In this document: piece by piece, positions 8,084 to 14,636 of the stretch
Layout: each line of letters begins with the position of its first letter
Numbering within the stretch: position 1 is the stretch's first letter
Position numbers and translations under genes: made by a program
Notes under the pieces: generated by a model
What the model saw: the letters and a program-made list of their open reading frames with translations, nothing else
Told to the model about the DNA's origin: nothing
The model's database searches: none
IMG/VR virus record: IMGVR_UViG_3300007539_000248
Span: 1-22,730 of that record
Length of the DNA: 22,730 nt
Direction: 5' to 3' (one strand)
Source: a virus

Positions 8084-10147
8084 TCAGTCTAATGCAGACG
8101 CCTCCACTTTAGATCTAGTAGTAGGGAACCTCATTAATTCCCTGGGAGGACTAGGTATCCCAGCAAAGCCCTGAAGAGCCGCGGGCAGATTCTCAAGAGC
8201 TGTGTTGGCTCTTTGAAGCTCTTCAACAATCTCTGTATTGCCTTGATCGATACTTACCCTTACGTTGGGATCAGATACTTGAGTGGGTGTCGAAGGGGGA
8301 GCCTTTACACCTTGAGCTTGCTGAATCTCTCTACTCATTTGGCTAGATTTAAAATCTTCGTCAAAAACATCATGAACAGCAGTCGCAGTTTTGTCTGCTA
8401 GCAATGAACCTGCAATACCTCCAATAATGGCTCCCGCTAAAGCTCCAATCGGACCAAGAGGAGCACCCGCAAGAGCCCCAGCACTCGCGCCACCGACAGC
8501 GCCTCCCGTAGTAGCCACACCTCTAACAGCCGCCCTGGACTTATCCCCAGTCTCAGCAAGCTCGCTGCCAGCCGCGATTACGCCTCCCAAGGGCGCGGCA
8601 AGTTTGCCCGCACCTCTGAGAAGCTTGCTGCTCATAACTTTATTCATGCCGGGGGACAGTGCTGATCTCGGCTTCATTCCTGCTTTTGTCAACCCTTTTG
8701 CTAGACCTGACTGCGTGCCCGTAAATGCTTTACCAATTAGCTTGCTTCCTGTCCTGCCTACTGCGGGTATAACGGAAGGTGCCGCAGAAAAGAGAAGGCT
8801 AGAGGCAAGCCCGTACAGCGACAGTGTAACGACCTTCAAAGCATTATCAAGACCTGTAGCAGTACCTATCATGCTTCCAAGAGAATCCGACACCTCATCC
8901 ATGGCGGGCACTAAACTGTCAAGGACCTTTCCTTGCATTCCTGCTTTATCATCCAGTCCCGCTAGGGTTGTACTGAACAATAGCATGTTCTCCATAGCCT
9001 CGCTAGAAGCTTCTCCGATAGATCGAGCCGCGTCTGCTTGTCTCTTAGCAGCTTCTTGAGGATCTACTTGTTGAGTCATGATACTAAGAATATCAGTACC
9101 TTTTTCAGCAGCTACTCTCGAAGCTCTTTGAGCTTTGAATACGTTTTCAAGGCTAAAGGTTTCTCCCATCGCCCCCTGTAACCCTGCCAGGAGCCGCTCC
9201 AACTCAATTCCAGATCTACCTTCTGTCTGCGCGGCCAAACCCTCAATGGCTTCAGCGATAAACTTAACCATCCCCTCTGGATCTGTCTCATCGGGCGCAG
9301 CAATACCAAGCTGGCCCGCAATTGCAGGAAGGCGTACTATATTTTCAGGGGCAGTAAGACTTCCAACAAGACTTGCTATATCAAGGTTGGGTAATGCCGT
9401 TGTAAGACCTGCTAACCCTTTCTGAATCGAGTCTGATACCTCAGGACCAAAAATAACCGACTGCTTTTGAGCTGTTCTTGTAAAAGCTGCCACGGCATCC
9501 AAAATGGAGTCGCCTAAAATACCGTTTGAAGCAGCCAATTCAAGAATGGTATTTCCAAACTCAATAGAAGCTTCCGTACTTGATCCGAGGACGTTTGTTT
9601 GAGTCGCAAGGAACTTATTAAGAGAGCCTATACCAGTGCCCAATCCAGCAGCGGTAGCAATAAACTTTTGAGTTTGTTTTCCGGTGTCTCTAATGTTTGC
9701 CCTGATCGCAGAGTCGATTAAACCTGCGAACTGAGACGGGGCAAGTCCAAACTCTCCTGCCGCCTTGGAGATAGATGCCTCGGCTCTGGATACGCCGTCT
9801 TCGAGCCTTCTCGTTCCAAGTAACTGATCTCTTCCCGTGGCTGCTGCTGAACGTGCCAAGGTATTGCCAAAGGCATTCATCTCGCCGCCAACTTTGGAAG
9901 CAAAGCTAACGACGGTTGATCCTATTTTTGTAAGGGTTGCAACAAGGACTGCTTTAGTCTTTACAAATTCCTTCGTATTTTCTTCAACAGCTTTCGTGTT
10001 ATCCTTCTGATCTTTATCGCCGTCAGAGCTTAACTTTTCAAGCTCCTCTTTCAGTTCTTTTATACCTTGGGAAACAGCATCTTGCATACCTTTAGCAAGA
10101 CGCTGATTTGCTTCCATTATCAGATTTCTGTCGGCGTCACTAAGCAT
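8084..10147 (-). CDS. Tail tape measure protein
   Basis: A 687-aa protein rich in Ala, Gly, Ser and helix-formers. Residues 1-75 are a charged predicted coiled coil (KELKEELEKLSSDGDKD). The middle is long amphipathic helix. Residues ~545-585 form a Gly/Ala-rich hydrophobic stretch (GAVGGASAGALAGA and AGAIIGGIAGSLLA), typical of the membrane-active segment of tape measures. By the usual ~0.15 nm per residue, a tail of about 100 nm is expected (inference). T4 gp29 is 590 aa. Its start overlaps the upstream stop as TAATG, and a CTAAATA motif lies 43 bases further upstream. A 222-codon open frame on the opposite strand (8391-9059) is a shadow of its Ala/Gly-rich C-terminal half. Confidence 0.9.
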   Translation of the reverse strand: MLSDADRNLIMEANQRLAKGMQDAVSQGIKELKEELEKLSSDGDKDQKDNTKAVEENTKEFVKTKAVLVATLTKIGSTVVSFASKVGGEMNAFGNTLARSAAATGRDQLLGTRRLEDGVSRAEASISKAAGEFGLAPSQFAGLIDSAIRANIRDTGKQTQKFIATAAGLGTGIGSLNKFLATQTNVLGSSTEASIEFGNTILELAASNGILGDSILDAVAAFTRTAQKQSVIFGPEVSDSIQKGLAGLTTALPNLDIASLVGSLTAPENIVRLPAIAGQLGIAAPDETDPEGMVKFIAEAIEGLAAQTEGRSGIELERLLAGLQGAMGETFSLENVFKAQRASRVAAEKGTDILSIMTQQVDPQEAAKRQADAARSIGEASSEAMENMLLFSTTLAGLDDKAGMQGKVLDSLVPAMDEVSDSLGSMIGTATGLDNALKVVTLSLYGLASSLLFSAAPSVIPAVGRTGSKLIGKAFTGTQSGLAKGLTKAGMKPRSALSPGMNKVMSSKLLRGAGKLAAPLGGVIAAGSELAETGDKSRAAVRGVATTGGAVGGASAGALAGAPLGPIGALAGAIIGGIAGSLLADKTATAVHDVFDEDFKSSQMSREIQQAQGVKAPPSTPTQVSDPNVRVSIDQGNTEIVEELQRANTALENLPAALQGFAGIPSPPRELMRFPTTRSKVEASALD

Positions 10148-10682: not shown

Positions 10683-10991
10683 ATGGTTTCCCTAAATCTA
10701 GATGACAAAATAGAACTTGAAGAGTTCATGGAACAAGTAAACTACGCTTTATCTTTAGAGTTTAAAGAAAAATGGAGACATAGGTATTCTGATACGTTTA
10801 TTAGTGTATTTCAGAATCTTCTAATAGAAGCATTTCAAAATCAAAAACCAATAAAGATCTCTCAATTAGAGAATCAGTTTACAAACAGATATGGTTATGA
10901 TATAAATCAAGTACATGATTTTTTTGAAATGATTGATATCAGCATTTACTACCCGATTGTTTATCGCGGCTTTCCTTCGTCTTCTCGATAG
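10683..10991 (+). CDS. Hypothetical protein, 102 aa
   Basis: A 102-aa protein of unknown function with no recognised motif. It is mostly helical: an acidic first third (LDDKIELEEFMEQV), a central amphipathic helix (FISVFQNLLIEAFQ) and an aromatic-rich C-terminus (DISIYYPIVYRGF). Its codons are AT-richer than those of the structural genes. The start is set by TTATATA ending 4 bases before ATG, with no Shine-Dalgarno, as for other plus-strand genes here. Its last 53 bases overlap the end of the convergent nuclease gene, and it appears to contain a weak terminator for that gene. Being on the plus strand next to the primase islet suggests an early or replication-phase gene (inference). Confidence 0.7.
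   Translation: MVSLNLDDKIELEEFMEQVNYALSLEFKEKWRHRYSDTFISVFQNLLIEAFQNQKPIKISQLENQFTNRYGYDINQVHDFFEMIDISIYYPIVYRGFPSSSR
10840..10875 (-). terminator. Weak candidate terminator of the nuclease gene, inside the 10683 gene
   Basis: On the minus strand GATTCTCT and AGAGATC (10875-10868, 10862-10856) form a 7-bp stem with one bulge and a 5-base loop, followed by TTTATTGGTTTTTG. It lies about 64 bases past the nuclease stop. Confidence 0.4.
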
Positions 10992-11733
10992 CTTCTTCAA
11001 GCATCTTCGGAGTTCCTCCAAACTTAGGGCATAAGTTCTTGTAACCACACCAGTCACAGAACTGGTTTACTCTGGGTCGAAAGTCGTCTGCTTTCTTCTT
11101 TCTTATCTTCCACTTTTTTTCGTCAACCCTTTTAAGAAATCCGGCGACATGACTAGGAAGATACTTGATAGTAACCAAGTGTCCAGTAATTGGGTAGTAG
11201 TGGGCTACTGTAATATCACGAATATCACACTTGTAGATCTTGGAGATTGCAGCAGTATAGATCATTAGCTGAGGATCGTTATATAACTCTCGCTTAGTCT
11301 TCTCTCTCTTTGAGGTTTTGTAATCAATCACCAGATACTTTCCCGTTTGGCCTTCAACTACACGGTCAATAATTCCATTGACCTCTAGGTCAGGAATAAC
11401 TTCAACCGCGAACTTCATTTCCGTAGAAAGGCTCTTGGTGAGCTTCTTGTTGAACTCGAAAAAGTTCTTGATACATTTCTCAGTATCTTCTTCACGCCCT
11501 TCGAAGTGATAGCTATTACGTAGACGGACAGCGTGCTCCCGAAGCTCCTCTACGGACTCGGCTTCTACTCCGTCTTCAAGGATCTTGTGAATGTAAGATC
11601 CAAACTGAAGAGCATCCTTGGAAAGCCCTTCGTTGTATTCCTCGGGCAGGTAGTGTACGTACTTGTACTTATACTTCTGCTCGCATTCCGTAAATGTGTT
11701 TAATTTTGAGGGTGAGAATCCTTTTATATACAT
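10939..11733 (-). CDS. PD-(D/E)XK nuclease with probable 4Fe-4S cluster (Cas4/AddB-like)
   Basis: A 264-aa protein from ATG at 11733. The start is chosen because residues 6-25 begin with the family's characteristic FSPSKLNTFTECEQKYKYKY. Nuclease motifs are GSYIHKILE (H49), E105, GIIDR (D123), IDYKTSK (D137, K139) and DPQLMIY (Q155, Y159). Four cysteines are placed as in the iron-sulfur nucleases AddB and Cas4: C17 near the N-terminus, then C226-x2-C229-x5-C235. All catalytic residues are present, so it should be active on DNA ends or single strands, probably in recombination or replication. Its start codon overlaps that of the divergent primase gene by two bases, and its end overlaps the convergent 10683 gene. 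No CRISPR array is nearby, so a phage replication or recombination role is more likely than adaptation. Confidence 0.85.
   Translation of the reverse strand: MYIKGFSPSKLNTFTECEQKYKYKYVHYLPEEYNEGLSKDALQFGSYIHKILEDGVEAESVEELREHAVRLRNSYHFEGREEDTEKCIKNFFEFNKKLTKSLSTEMKFAVEVIPDLEVNGIIDRVVEGQTGKYLVIDYKTSKREKTKRELYNDPQLMIYTAAISKIYKCDIRDITVAHYYPITGHLVTIKYLPSHVAGFLKRVDEKKWKIRKKKADDFRPRVNQFCDWCGYKNLCPKFGGTPKMLEEAIEKTKESRDKQSGSKC
11724..11730 (+). promoter_or_regulatory. TTATATA -10-like element before the primase gene
   Basis: TTTTATATAC directly precedes ATG at 11732, with only one base between motif and start codon. It lies inside the divergent nuclease coding sequence. It fits a leaderless transcript. 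Confidence 0.4.
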
Positions 11734-12724
11734 GATGTTACCGTCCGGTGTTATTAAAGAGTACTTGCACACGAAATTCCCTGTGAATAAGGTGTTAGGG
11801 CAAGAGTTTACAACTAATTCCATCTTCGCGCAGGACGAGAAGTTCCATATGTCCATCAACATGGACACGGGGCTTTGGCAAGATTTCAAGTCGCAAGAGA
11901 CGGGAAACTTCCCTCAGCTAATCGCAGCGGTAGAGCAGATCCCTTACGATCAAGCTCTAAGTTATCTACGCTCCAAGCTGTTCGACACCCCAGAACATCT
12001 GTTTGCAATTTCTTCGGTACGGGTCGAGAATCAGAAGCCTGTCTCTAATCAAAACCTAAAAAAGATCGTATCTTCATTCTCTCCGTTTAACCCTGATGAT
12101 ATAAACAAGGAGAGCCTTTCGGATCGCCTCGCCCGTAAGTTCGTACTTTCTAGGAAGCTATCCAAATTCACTTTCTACACATCCAAGTCCGGGCGTTACG
12201 CCAACAGGATCATTATTCCCTATACTCATACGGGTAGAATCTCTGATTCGTACTATTTCCAAGCTAGAAACCTTAGCGTAATGGGCGTCAAATATCTTAA
12301 CCCCTCGCGCGAGGTTACGGGTATCAAGTCCTCAGAGATTCTATTCCCTTATCGGCAGGACTGCGATTACATCTTTATCACCGAAGGGCCTATTGACGCC
12401 ATTAGCCTTCAAGTGAACGGTATAAATGCCACCTGTACGCAGGGCAGTCATCTGTCTCATCTGCAAGCTGAATCCCTGAAGGACAAGCAGATCATCTTTG
12501 CGTACGACAACGATACGGCAGGTGCTGAAGGGGTTAAGCACGCTAGAAGAACTCTACTTAGGAAGAACAAGAACGAGTTCTGTGCAGCATGCCCTCCCTC
12601 AGGCTTTAAGGACTGGAACGACTTGCACATCGAGTGCTCCTCTCAAGACGAATTTATCTCTAAGGTGCGTGAAAGCATACGTACCGTGGACTTCGAATAC
12701 GATATCACCGAAGCACTAGGCTGA
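11732..12724 (+). CDS. DNA primase, TOPRIM domain (gp61-like)
   Basis: A 330-aa protein, close to T4 gp61 (342 aa), which makes RNA primers for the lagging strand together with the replicative helicase. The TOPRIM motifs are complete: FITEGPIDAIS (E218, D222) and FAYDNDTAGAEG (D259, D261). A later KDWNDL is also typical. The N-terminal segment (FHMSINMDTGLWQDF then GNFPQLIAAVE) has the layout of a primase zinc ribbon but contains no cysteines. ATG at 11732 is chosen because TTATATA ends 1 base before it and residues further upstream are not family-like; ATG at 11735 is an alternative. It is divergent from the nuclease with overlapping starts, and its end overlaps the convergent 12705-13595 gene by 20 bases. 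Confidence 0.85.
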   Translation: MMLPSGVIKEYLHTKFPVNKVLGQEFTTNSIFAQDEKFHMSINMDTGLWQDFKSQETGNFPQLIAAVEQIPYDQALSYLRSKLFDTPEHLFAISSVRVENQKPVSNQNLKKIVSSFSPFNPDDINKESLSDRLARKFVLSRKLSKFTFYTSKSGRYANRIIIPYTHTGRISDSYYFQARNLSVMGVKYLNPSREVTGIKSSEILFPYRQDCDYIFITEGPIDAISLQVNGINATCTQGSHLSHLQAESLKDKQIIFAYDNDTAGAEGVKHARRTLLRKNKNEFCAACPPSGFKDWNDLHIECSSQDEFISKVRESIRTVDFEYDITEALG

Positions 12725-13595
12725 ACTCTTCACTAACCACAGTCTCTTCAAAAAGATCGTACTTGACCTGAACGATGTAATCACCCGTCTCCAAGGCTTC
12801 AGTATTCCAAGTATAGAGAATGGTGTTCTCGGAGCTAACGTCAACACCTACTGAAGTCCAATCAACTATGTCCGTAATCAGGCCCGTCGTACGGGGGTTT
12901 CTTTTTCTGATTCTTATTTGAGCGTTTCGTGCTGTGCTATTTCTAAACACGTTCTTGATATCACGCGGCATATTCTTATTCGCCACAAAAATATCTGTAG
13001 AGATTCTAAGAGTCTCGACTGAACTTAGCTGAAGGTACTTCTGTTGCAGCTTGTTCTTGGCGGTAAGCTGGTAGGGCTCCACGAATGTGAGAACTCTATC
13101 TTGATATACAGTGAACTTATTCCAGTAGAGCTTGTAACCAGCAGAGGCTTCAGTTGTCTCGAAGTTTTTGACCAGCCAAGCATCAAAGTAGTTGCCGTCC
13201 GAAAGTCCCAGCGAAGAAAATTCAGGGAATACCGTACCGTCTGCGACAATTGCATAACGTCCATCGTCTTGTTTAAAGATGCCTGACGCCGTAACTGCTG
13301 TGGGATCATAAGCACTTACTTCAAGAATGTTTTGGTACGTAGCTACTTTAAGAGCTTCACCACTGGCGTTCAGCTTACCATACTGATCTGTTCCTGTAGC
13401 ACTTGAGTCCCTGTTAATGTAGATGTCCGGGCTACCGTTCGTTAGAGTGGTATCGGGTAAGATGTAACACGCGCTAATATCGTACGGGTTAAAGTACGTA
13501 CCATTATTGGTGAAGTTCATCTCAAGTAGAGTCTTGAGAAGAATACTAGGACGGTTATACCGCTTCACTACTTCAAATCCGTTAAACTGAGCCAT
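12705..13595 (-). CDS. Probable virion structural protein, 296 aa
   Basis: A 296-aa protein, not assigned to a family. It is rich in beta-forming and aromatic residues throughout, with few charges at the ends, as in tail or neck structural proteins. Examples are ILYTWNTEALETGDYIVQVK near the C-terminus, which looks like an immunoglobulin-like or fibronectin-like strand pair, and FDAWLVKNFETTEA in the middle. It follows the gp26-like gene and its -1-frame extension, roughly where T4 has genes 27 and 28, so a tail or baseplate component is plausible (inference). CTAAATA ends only 4 bases before ATG, with no Shine-Dalgarno, so the transcript could be leaderless. Its stop lies inside the convergent primase gene. 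Confidence 0.7.
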   Translation of the reverse strand: MAQFNGFEVVKRYNRPSILLKTLLEMNFTNNGTYFNPYDISACYILPDTTLTNGSPDIYINRDSSATGTDQYGKLNASGEALKVATYQNILEVSAYDPTAVTASGIFKQDDGRYAIVADGTVFPEFSSLGLSDGNYFDAWLVKNFETTEASAGYKLYWNKFTVYQDRVLTFVEPYQLTAKNKLQQKYLQLSSVETLRISTDIFVANKNMPRDIKNVFRNSTARNAQIRIRKRNPRTTGLITDIVDWTSVGVDVSSENTILYTWNTEALETGDYIVQVKYDLFEETVVSEEFSLVLR

Positions 13596-13599
13596 ACTT

Positions 13600-13606
13600 T
13601 ATTTAG
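13600..13606 (-). promoter_or_regulatory. CTAAATA motif, candidate late promoter (12705-13595 gene)
   Basis: CTAAATAAAG ends 4 bases before ATG at 13595 on the coding strand and overlaps the stop codon of the -1-frame extension. If used as a -10 element, the transcript would start at about the start codon. Confidence 0.45.
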
Positions 13607-13857
13607 GTTTTTCGAGATTTAGCTTTATCTATTTCTTCTTTCTCCCTTTCCCGCTCTTCGTTTAGAAGCTTGATGTAGTCCAATCGCTCGATCAAGGTAA
13701 GGTCTTTAACGTCTTCAAAGCTGAAATTTACGTGCTTAACAAGGATGTAGGCTTGATTCTCAAGACCTCGATCCGACCACATGCTTGTTAGCTCGCTGTA
13801 AAAAAATTGGGATTCAGATCGATAGAGACCTGATTTCTCTTGCCGCAGCCCTGGCAT
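13603..13857 (-). CDS. -1-frame extension of the gp26-like gene (gp51 position), probably expressed by frameshifting
   Basis: An 84-codon open frame whose first 70 bases lie within the gp26-like gene. The part after base 13800 looks like a real protein: FFYSELTSMW, then EDVKDLTLIERLDYIKLL and a charged helix to the end. The protein-like pattern seems to begin at the FFY, exactly where a -1 slip on seven Ts (13806-13800) in the gp26-like frame would enter this frame. The joined product would be about 344 aa (279 + 65). Without a shift, ATG at 13782 would give 59 aa, 5 bases after the upstream stop and with no Shine-Dalgarno. In T4, gene 51, a hub assembly factor, follows gene 26. I take this as a tail-assembly-chaperone-like extension; that is inference from the reading frames. 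Confidence 0.6.
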   Translation of the reverse strand: MPGLRQEKSGLYRSESQFFYSELTSMWSDRGLENQAYILVKHVNFSFEDVKDLTLIERLDYIKLLNEEREREKEEIDKAKSRKT

Positions 13858-14636
13858 GAATAGAAGAACTTGTCTTCCATACCATATTCTGAACTGAAAA
13901 TTTTGGATCGAAGAGTATCGATATCTCTAACGGTGGTCTTTCTGATAAAGGCTTCGATGATTGTCTTGTCCTTTACTCCTGCAACGCTGTAAATAAACAG
14001 GTGCATGTTTTGGTGAATGGCCTCTAGGCTGTTGTACAGATGAACGTCCTGTACGCGCGGGAGCTTGATCTGAACCTCCTGCTCGGAGTCGGGAAGAGTA
14101 AACTTCATCATGGACTCCTCCAAGGGAGTTACGCCGAGAGTCTTAATAGACAGATCGAGCTTGCTTACGGTTCCGCAGTTATCACAGGAGTGTTCGATAG
14201 GATAGACATCGCCGTACGAGATACCTCGTAAGCGGAACAGGACGTAAAGCCGATCCTGCGGCGTAAGCATTGCTACGTCGATACCTTCAACACACCTACG
14301 AAGAAGCTTCTCCAGAGTTTCGTCAGGAGAATCCATAGCCTGAGCGGATTTTAACATACGCTCTTCGTCGAAAGTGAAGGGGCGAATCTTTACTGATGTA
14401 GTTCCCGTTTCGTACAGCAGTCCGCGTGAAGGTAGGTCCACTTCAACCCAACTCATCTTAGAAGCTACTTTGCTAAGAAGCTGGTCTAGTATCTCTTCTG
14501 AGCGCCTATCAGCGGGTAGCGTTTCCGCCATTGCTTGCGCTTTCTCCGCTACACCTGTGCTCTGGGGACCTTCGGGCTCAGGAGCAACTCCTGCCTGATG
14601 TTTTTTTACAAGATCAACGATTGATTCTTCTGACAT
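13788..14636 (-). CDS. gp26-like baseplate hub assembly protein with four-Cys zinc site
   Basis: A 282-aa protein matching the T4 gp26 / T4-type baseplate family in pattern. After a low-complexity leader (residues 1-55) come WVEVDLPSRGLLYETG and VKIRPFTFDEE, then PQDRLYVLFRLRGISYGDVY. A zinc-type pair C151-x2-C154 (SCDNCG) is matched by C261-x2-C264 (SCQGCGK). Family members act in baseplate hub or tail assembly ahead of the tape measure. The final codons read AAT TTT TTT ACA, a slippery site that would fuse it to the next frame. Upstream, TATAAT on the coding strand ends 28 bases before ATG, with no -35 box and no Shine-Dalgarno; the divergent helicase gene starts 43 bases away. Confidence 0.8.
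   Translation of the reverse strand: MSEESIVDLVKKHQAGVAPEPEGPQSTGVAEKAQAMAETLPADRRSEEILDQLLSKVASKMSWVEVDLPSRGLLYETGTTSVKIRPFTFDEERMLKSAQAMDSPDETLEKLLRRCVEGIDVAMLTPQDRLYVLFRLRGISYGDVYPIEHSCDNCGTVSKLDLSIKTLGVTPLEESMMKFTLPDSEQEVQIKLPRVQDVHLYNSLEAIHQNMHLFIYSVAGVKDKTIIEAFIRKTTVRDIDTLRSKIFSSEYGMEDKFFYSCQGCGKRNQVSIDLNPNFFTAS
13800..13806 (-). promoter_or_regulatory. Slippery heptamer T_TTT_TTT, candidate -1 ribosomal frameshift site
   Basis: Seven consecutive Ts on the coding strand, phased in the gp26-like frame as (AA)T TTT TTT ACA. This is the X_XXY_YYZ form for -1 slippage, 9 bases before the stop codon. P2 uses a similar T_TTT_TTG site in its tail assembly genes E/E+E'. A small stem-loop (13767-13750, CTTGA/TCAAG with loop GAA) lies about 33 bases downstream, too far to be sure it stimulates shifting. 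Confidence 0.6.

Follow-up and report, generated by a model that had tools for sequence, protein, structure and literature searches.

In phage lambda (gpG/gpGT) and in P2 (gpE/gpE+E'), the ribosome makes a -1 slip a few codons before the stop codon of the short tail assembly chaperone, and a C-terminal extension is thereby added to part of the product. The frameshift site of P2 is T_TTT_TTG. Among the Vandenendeviridae and Andersonviridae, a conserved GTTTTT site lies at the end of the N-terminal chaperone reading frame (TAC-N), and the -1 frame is open in all genomes (PMC12846349). In the T4 literature, gp26 and gp51 are listed as hub assembly chaperones (PMC3004832), and a 2022 report on the tail chaperones of T4-like phages (Vladimirov, Gautam and Davidson, Virology 566:9-15), as described in two papers that cite it (PMC10885494, PMC12846349), assigns them short and long forms.

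Here we analyse a viral stretch of 22,730 nucleotides (IMG/VR record IMGVR_UViG_3300007539_000248; hereafter "the window"). Judging from sequence comparisons, it very probably carries a tail assembly chaperone gene subject to programmed -1 ribosomal frameshifting, which would yield a short form of 282 amino acids and a long form of 344. The locus resembles the lambda and P2 pairs in having a short zero-frame form, a putative -1 slip near its stop codon, and a C-terminal extension, and its slippery site is similar to that of P2. It differs from them in that the zero-frame protein is larger (282 amino acids) and has two CxxC pairs, and in that four genes part it from the tape measure gene. The poly-T site at the TAC-N end is also shared with the Vandenendeviridae and Andersonviridae; these belong to other phage families, and the likeness is drawn from the description of their site.

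The gp26-like gene and its -1 frame extension

The gp26-like gene of the window (13788-14636, minus strand) encodes the zero-frame product, the G-like or TAC-N form. This protein matches PF12322 (T4_baseplate; E=2.6e-21, 76.7 bits against a curated cut-off of 24.5) and phrog_150 (baseplate hub; E=7e-25). On the minus strand the gene ends AAT TTT TTT ACA GCG AGC TAA, and the protein ends ...NPNFFTAS*. The heptamer T_TTT_TTT (13800-13806, minus strand; seven As on the plus strand) is thus read directly from the sequence, in phase, with three codons (ACA GCG AGC) between it and the TAA. The -1 frame runs N F F Y S E L and onward to a stop codon at 13603-13605, and the fusion comprises 344 amino acids (279 + 65). 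The 65-residue extension (13603-13800, minus strand) would be the T-like part of the long form. Both the in-phase heptamer near the stop codon and the stop-free -1 frame entered at FFYSEL had been pointed out in an earlier, sequence-only reading of this DNA, and we confirmed both, the latter by reading all 65 codons down to 13603. That reading had set the span of the feature at 13603-13857; the part from 13603 to 13800 is the extension, and the remainder belongs only to a mechanically called open reading frame.

In the mechanism that we propose, most ribosomes would end at the TAA and produce the short form (gp26, the equivalent of lambda gpG), and some would slip one base back on T_TTT_TTT and produce the long form with its C-terminal domain (the equivalent of lambda gpGT). 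By analogy with lambda, both forms would then coat the tape measure protein and bring in tail tube subunits. Slippage on the heptamer, and its efficiency, are what we infer from this arrangement.

Conservation of the slippery site

Relatives were collected by a search with the portal protein of the window, which gave 80 related contigs and a lineage set of 37 untruncated gp26 loci including the window, 28 of them non-redundant. With gp26 proteins as queries, a search of viral_contigs with that of the window recovered an identical contig alone, the gp26 of Stenotrophomonas phage RAS14 found no relatives, that of SP-15 found only SP-15 itself, and an alignment of nine gp26 proteins was too divergent to be used as a query. 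Identity to the gp26-like protein of the window is 27-62% across the other non-redundant loci of the lineage. A relative of the lineage (L169; 49% portal identity) is found on a contig from a Prochlorococcus single-cell genome (AG-409-P03), which gives a hint of the hosts.

In all 37 lineage loci, the heptamer lies exactly three codons upstream of the gp26 stop codon and the -1 frame is open, with an extension of 52-63 codons. The site is T_TTT_TTC in 22 loci, T_TTT_TTT in 14, and G_TTT_TTT in one (L167), the last being the form seen in the Vandenendeviridae and Andersonviridae. In cyanophages, T_TTT_TTC is found one codon before the stop codon in 77/77 loci, and T_TTT_TTT occurs also in Sinorhizobium phage phiM12 and in RAS14. 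The codon that precedes the TTT encodes N, S, D, H, or Y, yet it ends in T in 27 of the 28 non-redundant members. Likewise, the first Phe of the site is encoded by TTT without exception, even though TTC accounts for 41% of Phe codons. Given the codon use of the lineage, log10 P is about -8.6 for the T-ending codon and -6.4 for the TTT, figures that overstate the case somewhat because the 28 sequences were treated as independent.

The extension also evolves as a protein would. Its dN/dS in the -1 frame is 0.20 for the lineage loci and 0.083 for those of the cyanophages, and lineage substitutions at the three -1 frame codon positions are 0.27, 0.18, and 0.43, highest at the third. It is therefore hardly conceivable that the T run is in phase by accident and that the -1 reading frame is silent: the site is kept in 114/114 loci of two lineages, and the -1 frame is under purifying selection. 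Furthermore, T_TTT_TTY within the last six codons was found in none of 276 other open reading frames of at least 150 codons on the same contigs, as against 36 of the 37 lineage gp26 homologues, which argues that the site is not due to chance.

Candidate start codons of the extension

The extension would need a start codon of its own if it were a separate small gene, with ribosomes re-initiating there once they had terminated at the end of gp26. The window does have an ATG in the -1 frame (13780-13782, minus strand), the sole nearby candidate, and the annotators of phiM12 assumed a separate gp51 reading frame. However, an ATG near this position is present in only one of the 27 non-redundant relatives (L149), and 18 of the 28 non-redundant members have no ATG, GTG, or TTG ahead of residue 15 of the extension. 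Re-initiation also leaves unexplained both the heptamer and the T-ending codon before it, and in the Straboviridae gp51 is a contiguous fusion. We therefore regard an independent gene as very unlikely. The sequence-only reading had held that a conserved start codon at 13782 together with no slippery sequence would speak against a frameshift, and the relatives present the opposite picture, with the heptamer kept and the start codon not.

The extension of the window matches phrog_634 ("baseplate hub assembly catalyst", the gp51 family) with E=2e-4. Its annotation in other genomes is uneven. In S-MbCM7 (L006:4598-4772) it is left without annotation, in phiM12 (L007:4855-5016) it is annotated as the separate gp51 reading frame mentioned above, and in SP-15 (L003:4803-4922) a hypothetical reading frame covers part of it.

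RNA structure downstream of the site

Among the 15 T_TTT_TTC members tested (L149, L157, L162, L126, and 11 others; alignment A3, columns 19-45), a hairpin of 7-8 bp starts 7 nt past the heptamer. Changes on both sides are seen in five of its eight pairs, and neither any of 500 shuffles nor any slid control reaches the same covariation. In cyanophages, too, a stable hairpin is predicted (mean z -2.3), with modest covariation, one slid control equalling it in both-side changes. The covariation test of a downstream stem was negative in the T_TTT_TTT subgroup to which the window belongs. A possible long-range stem is predicted for the window specifically (13734-13792, minus strand; arms 13784-13792 and 13734-13743), without support from covariation. 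The two subgroups may thus show a trade-off between the strength of the slippery site and that of the stimulator, and a site of seven Ts may depend less on a stimulator than T_TTT_TTC does.

These structures also bear on the view that the -1 product comes from slippage of RNA polymerase on the T run rather than from slippage of the ribosome. Seven Ts are present in the 14 lineage loci with T_TTT_TTT, and L119 and L109 have eight, as this view would favour. On the contrary, the T_TTT_TTC of 22/37 lineage loci and 77/77 cyanophage loci offers a run of six Ts only, which is short for transcriptional slippage. Moreover, the TTTTTTC subgroup has a covarying mRNA hairpin at the spacing expected of a frameshift stimulator, and the codon phase of the site is invariant, as ribosomal slippage requires. 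Transcriptional slippage is accordingly a very improbable source of the long form, and -1 ribosomal frameshifting remains our preferred reading.

Relation to T4 gp26 and gp51

The zero-frame product of the window is a homologue of T4 gp26, and its extension is a homologue of the C-terminus of T4 gp51. In T4 and other Straboviridae these are two separate genes, 26 and 51, transcribed divergently, whereas the lineage of the window has a single gene with a slippery site. T4 gp51 itself has a gp26-like N-terminal part and the extension homologue at its C-terminus. A profile built from six gp51 proteins of the Straboviridae, compared by hhalign, aligns end to end with the fusions of the cyanophages and phiM12 (E=1e-16) and also matches the fusions of the window lineage (E=2.7e-8). 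The extension alone matches the gp51 profile with E=2.9e-10 in the cyanophages and E=1.7e-5 in the lineage; the best of 40 shuffled controls of the lineage extension reached 0.028. Thus the heptamer is kept in homologues and similarity spans the join, gp51 aligning end to end with the fusion, which are the two things that the earlier reading had proposed to look for.

From these profile alignments, gp26 and gp51 of T4 seem to represent the short and the long form, respectively, encoded as two genes. In other words, T4 gp51 appears to be a second copy of gp26 to which the extension is fused, and T4 therefore has two genes and no frameshift. We infer that gp26 and gp51 arose by the duplication of a single frameshifting gene. 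The earlier suggestion that the gene 26-51 pair corresponds to a tail assembly chaperone pair is supported by this homology; as for the extension, it matches only the C-terminal part of gp51. Our reading of the window agrees with the 2022 report, as the papers citing that report describe it.

Gene order and the chaperone role

The presumed client of the chaperone, the tape measure protein, is encoded at 8084-10147 (minus strand) and matches phrog_167 (tail length tape measure; E=8e-7) and phrog_1047 (E=8e-15). As far as the contigs reach, the lineage keeps the gene order terL, portal, p535, UvsW, gp26/extension, p296, primase, exonuclease, gp2, and tape measure. The sequence-only reading had compared the gene with the lambda and P2 chaperone genes just upstream of the tape measure gene; here the position differs, in that four genes intervene (p296, primase-like, exonuclease, and gp2-like). 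In the distant relatives SP-15, LIS04, phiXF1, and Mel-JY01, the gp26-like gene sits between the tail tube and tape measure genes.

Two of the intervening regions deserve mention. The p296 gene (12705-13595; 296 amino acids) follows directly after the extension and is present in 27/27 non-redundant relatives examined, and its product has no convincing Pfam or PHROG match. The exonuclease-like (10939-11889, minus strand) and primase-like (11663-12724, plus strand) reading frames share about 230 bases as listed, and the listed TTG start of the former probably lies too far upstream.

Comparisons of structure gave weak matches. When 837 chains were re-aligned to the gp26 model of the window, five reached Z 2, and 3klu (YqbN) and 2ob9 (HK97 gp13) were among the three best re-aligned entries, with a Z of about 4.4-4.5; the gp51 model also showed a weak fold match to 2ob9 (Z 3.7). 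3klu is termed a tail assembly chaperone (TAC) in PMC9603447. Plain Foldseek searches of the PDB with both models and a search of the PDB by sequence gave nothing significant, and no TAC family was among the Pfam results for the window protein. Homology, the position of the gene in relatives, the T4 literature, and the weak fold match together suggest that the gp26-like products function as chaperones.

Putative recoding within the chaperone family

The shifted frame is not the same in all relatives. In SP-15 (L003:4723-4930), LIS04 (L002:4714-4940), and GXN1 (L004:4729-5000), and also in LR756508, Mel-JY01, and phiXF1 (L172, L173, and L176), the reading frame of the extension is +1 (or -2) instead of -1, and candidate slip sites in this group are TTTTTT, CCCGA, or CCC_TAA. 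The profile of the SP-15, LIS04, and GXN1 extensions nevertheless matches that of the window lineage (E=6e-5; best of 40 shuffles, 0.038). It seems fairly likely that a single homologous chaperone family has exchanged one recoding device for another: -1 in the window lineage, the cyanophages, and Sinorhizobium phages, +1 (or -2) in the SP-15-like phages, and none in the Straboviridae, which have two genes.

Significance

The principle of a frameshifted tail chaperone is already known, and the evidence for it in the window lineage is unusually clear. Because the principle was published in 2022, what is gained here is confirmation, extent, and details of the mechanism, namely, the fixed slippery site, the covarying hairpin in one subgroup, and the variant with a shifted frame. 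The analysis also points to a C-terminal domain of 55-65 amino acids that has been missed or mis-annotated in several T4-like phage and cyanophage genomes.
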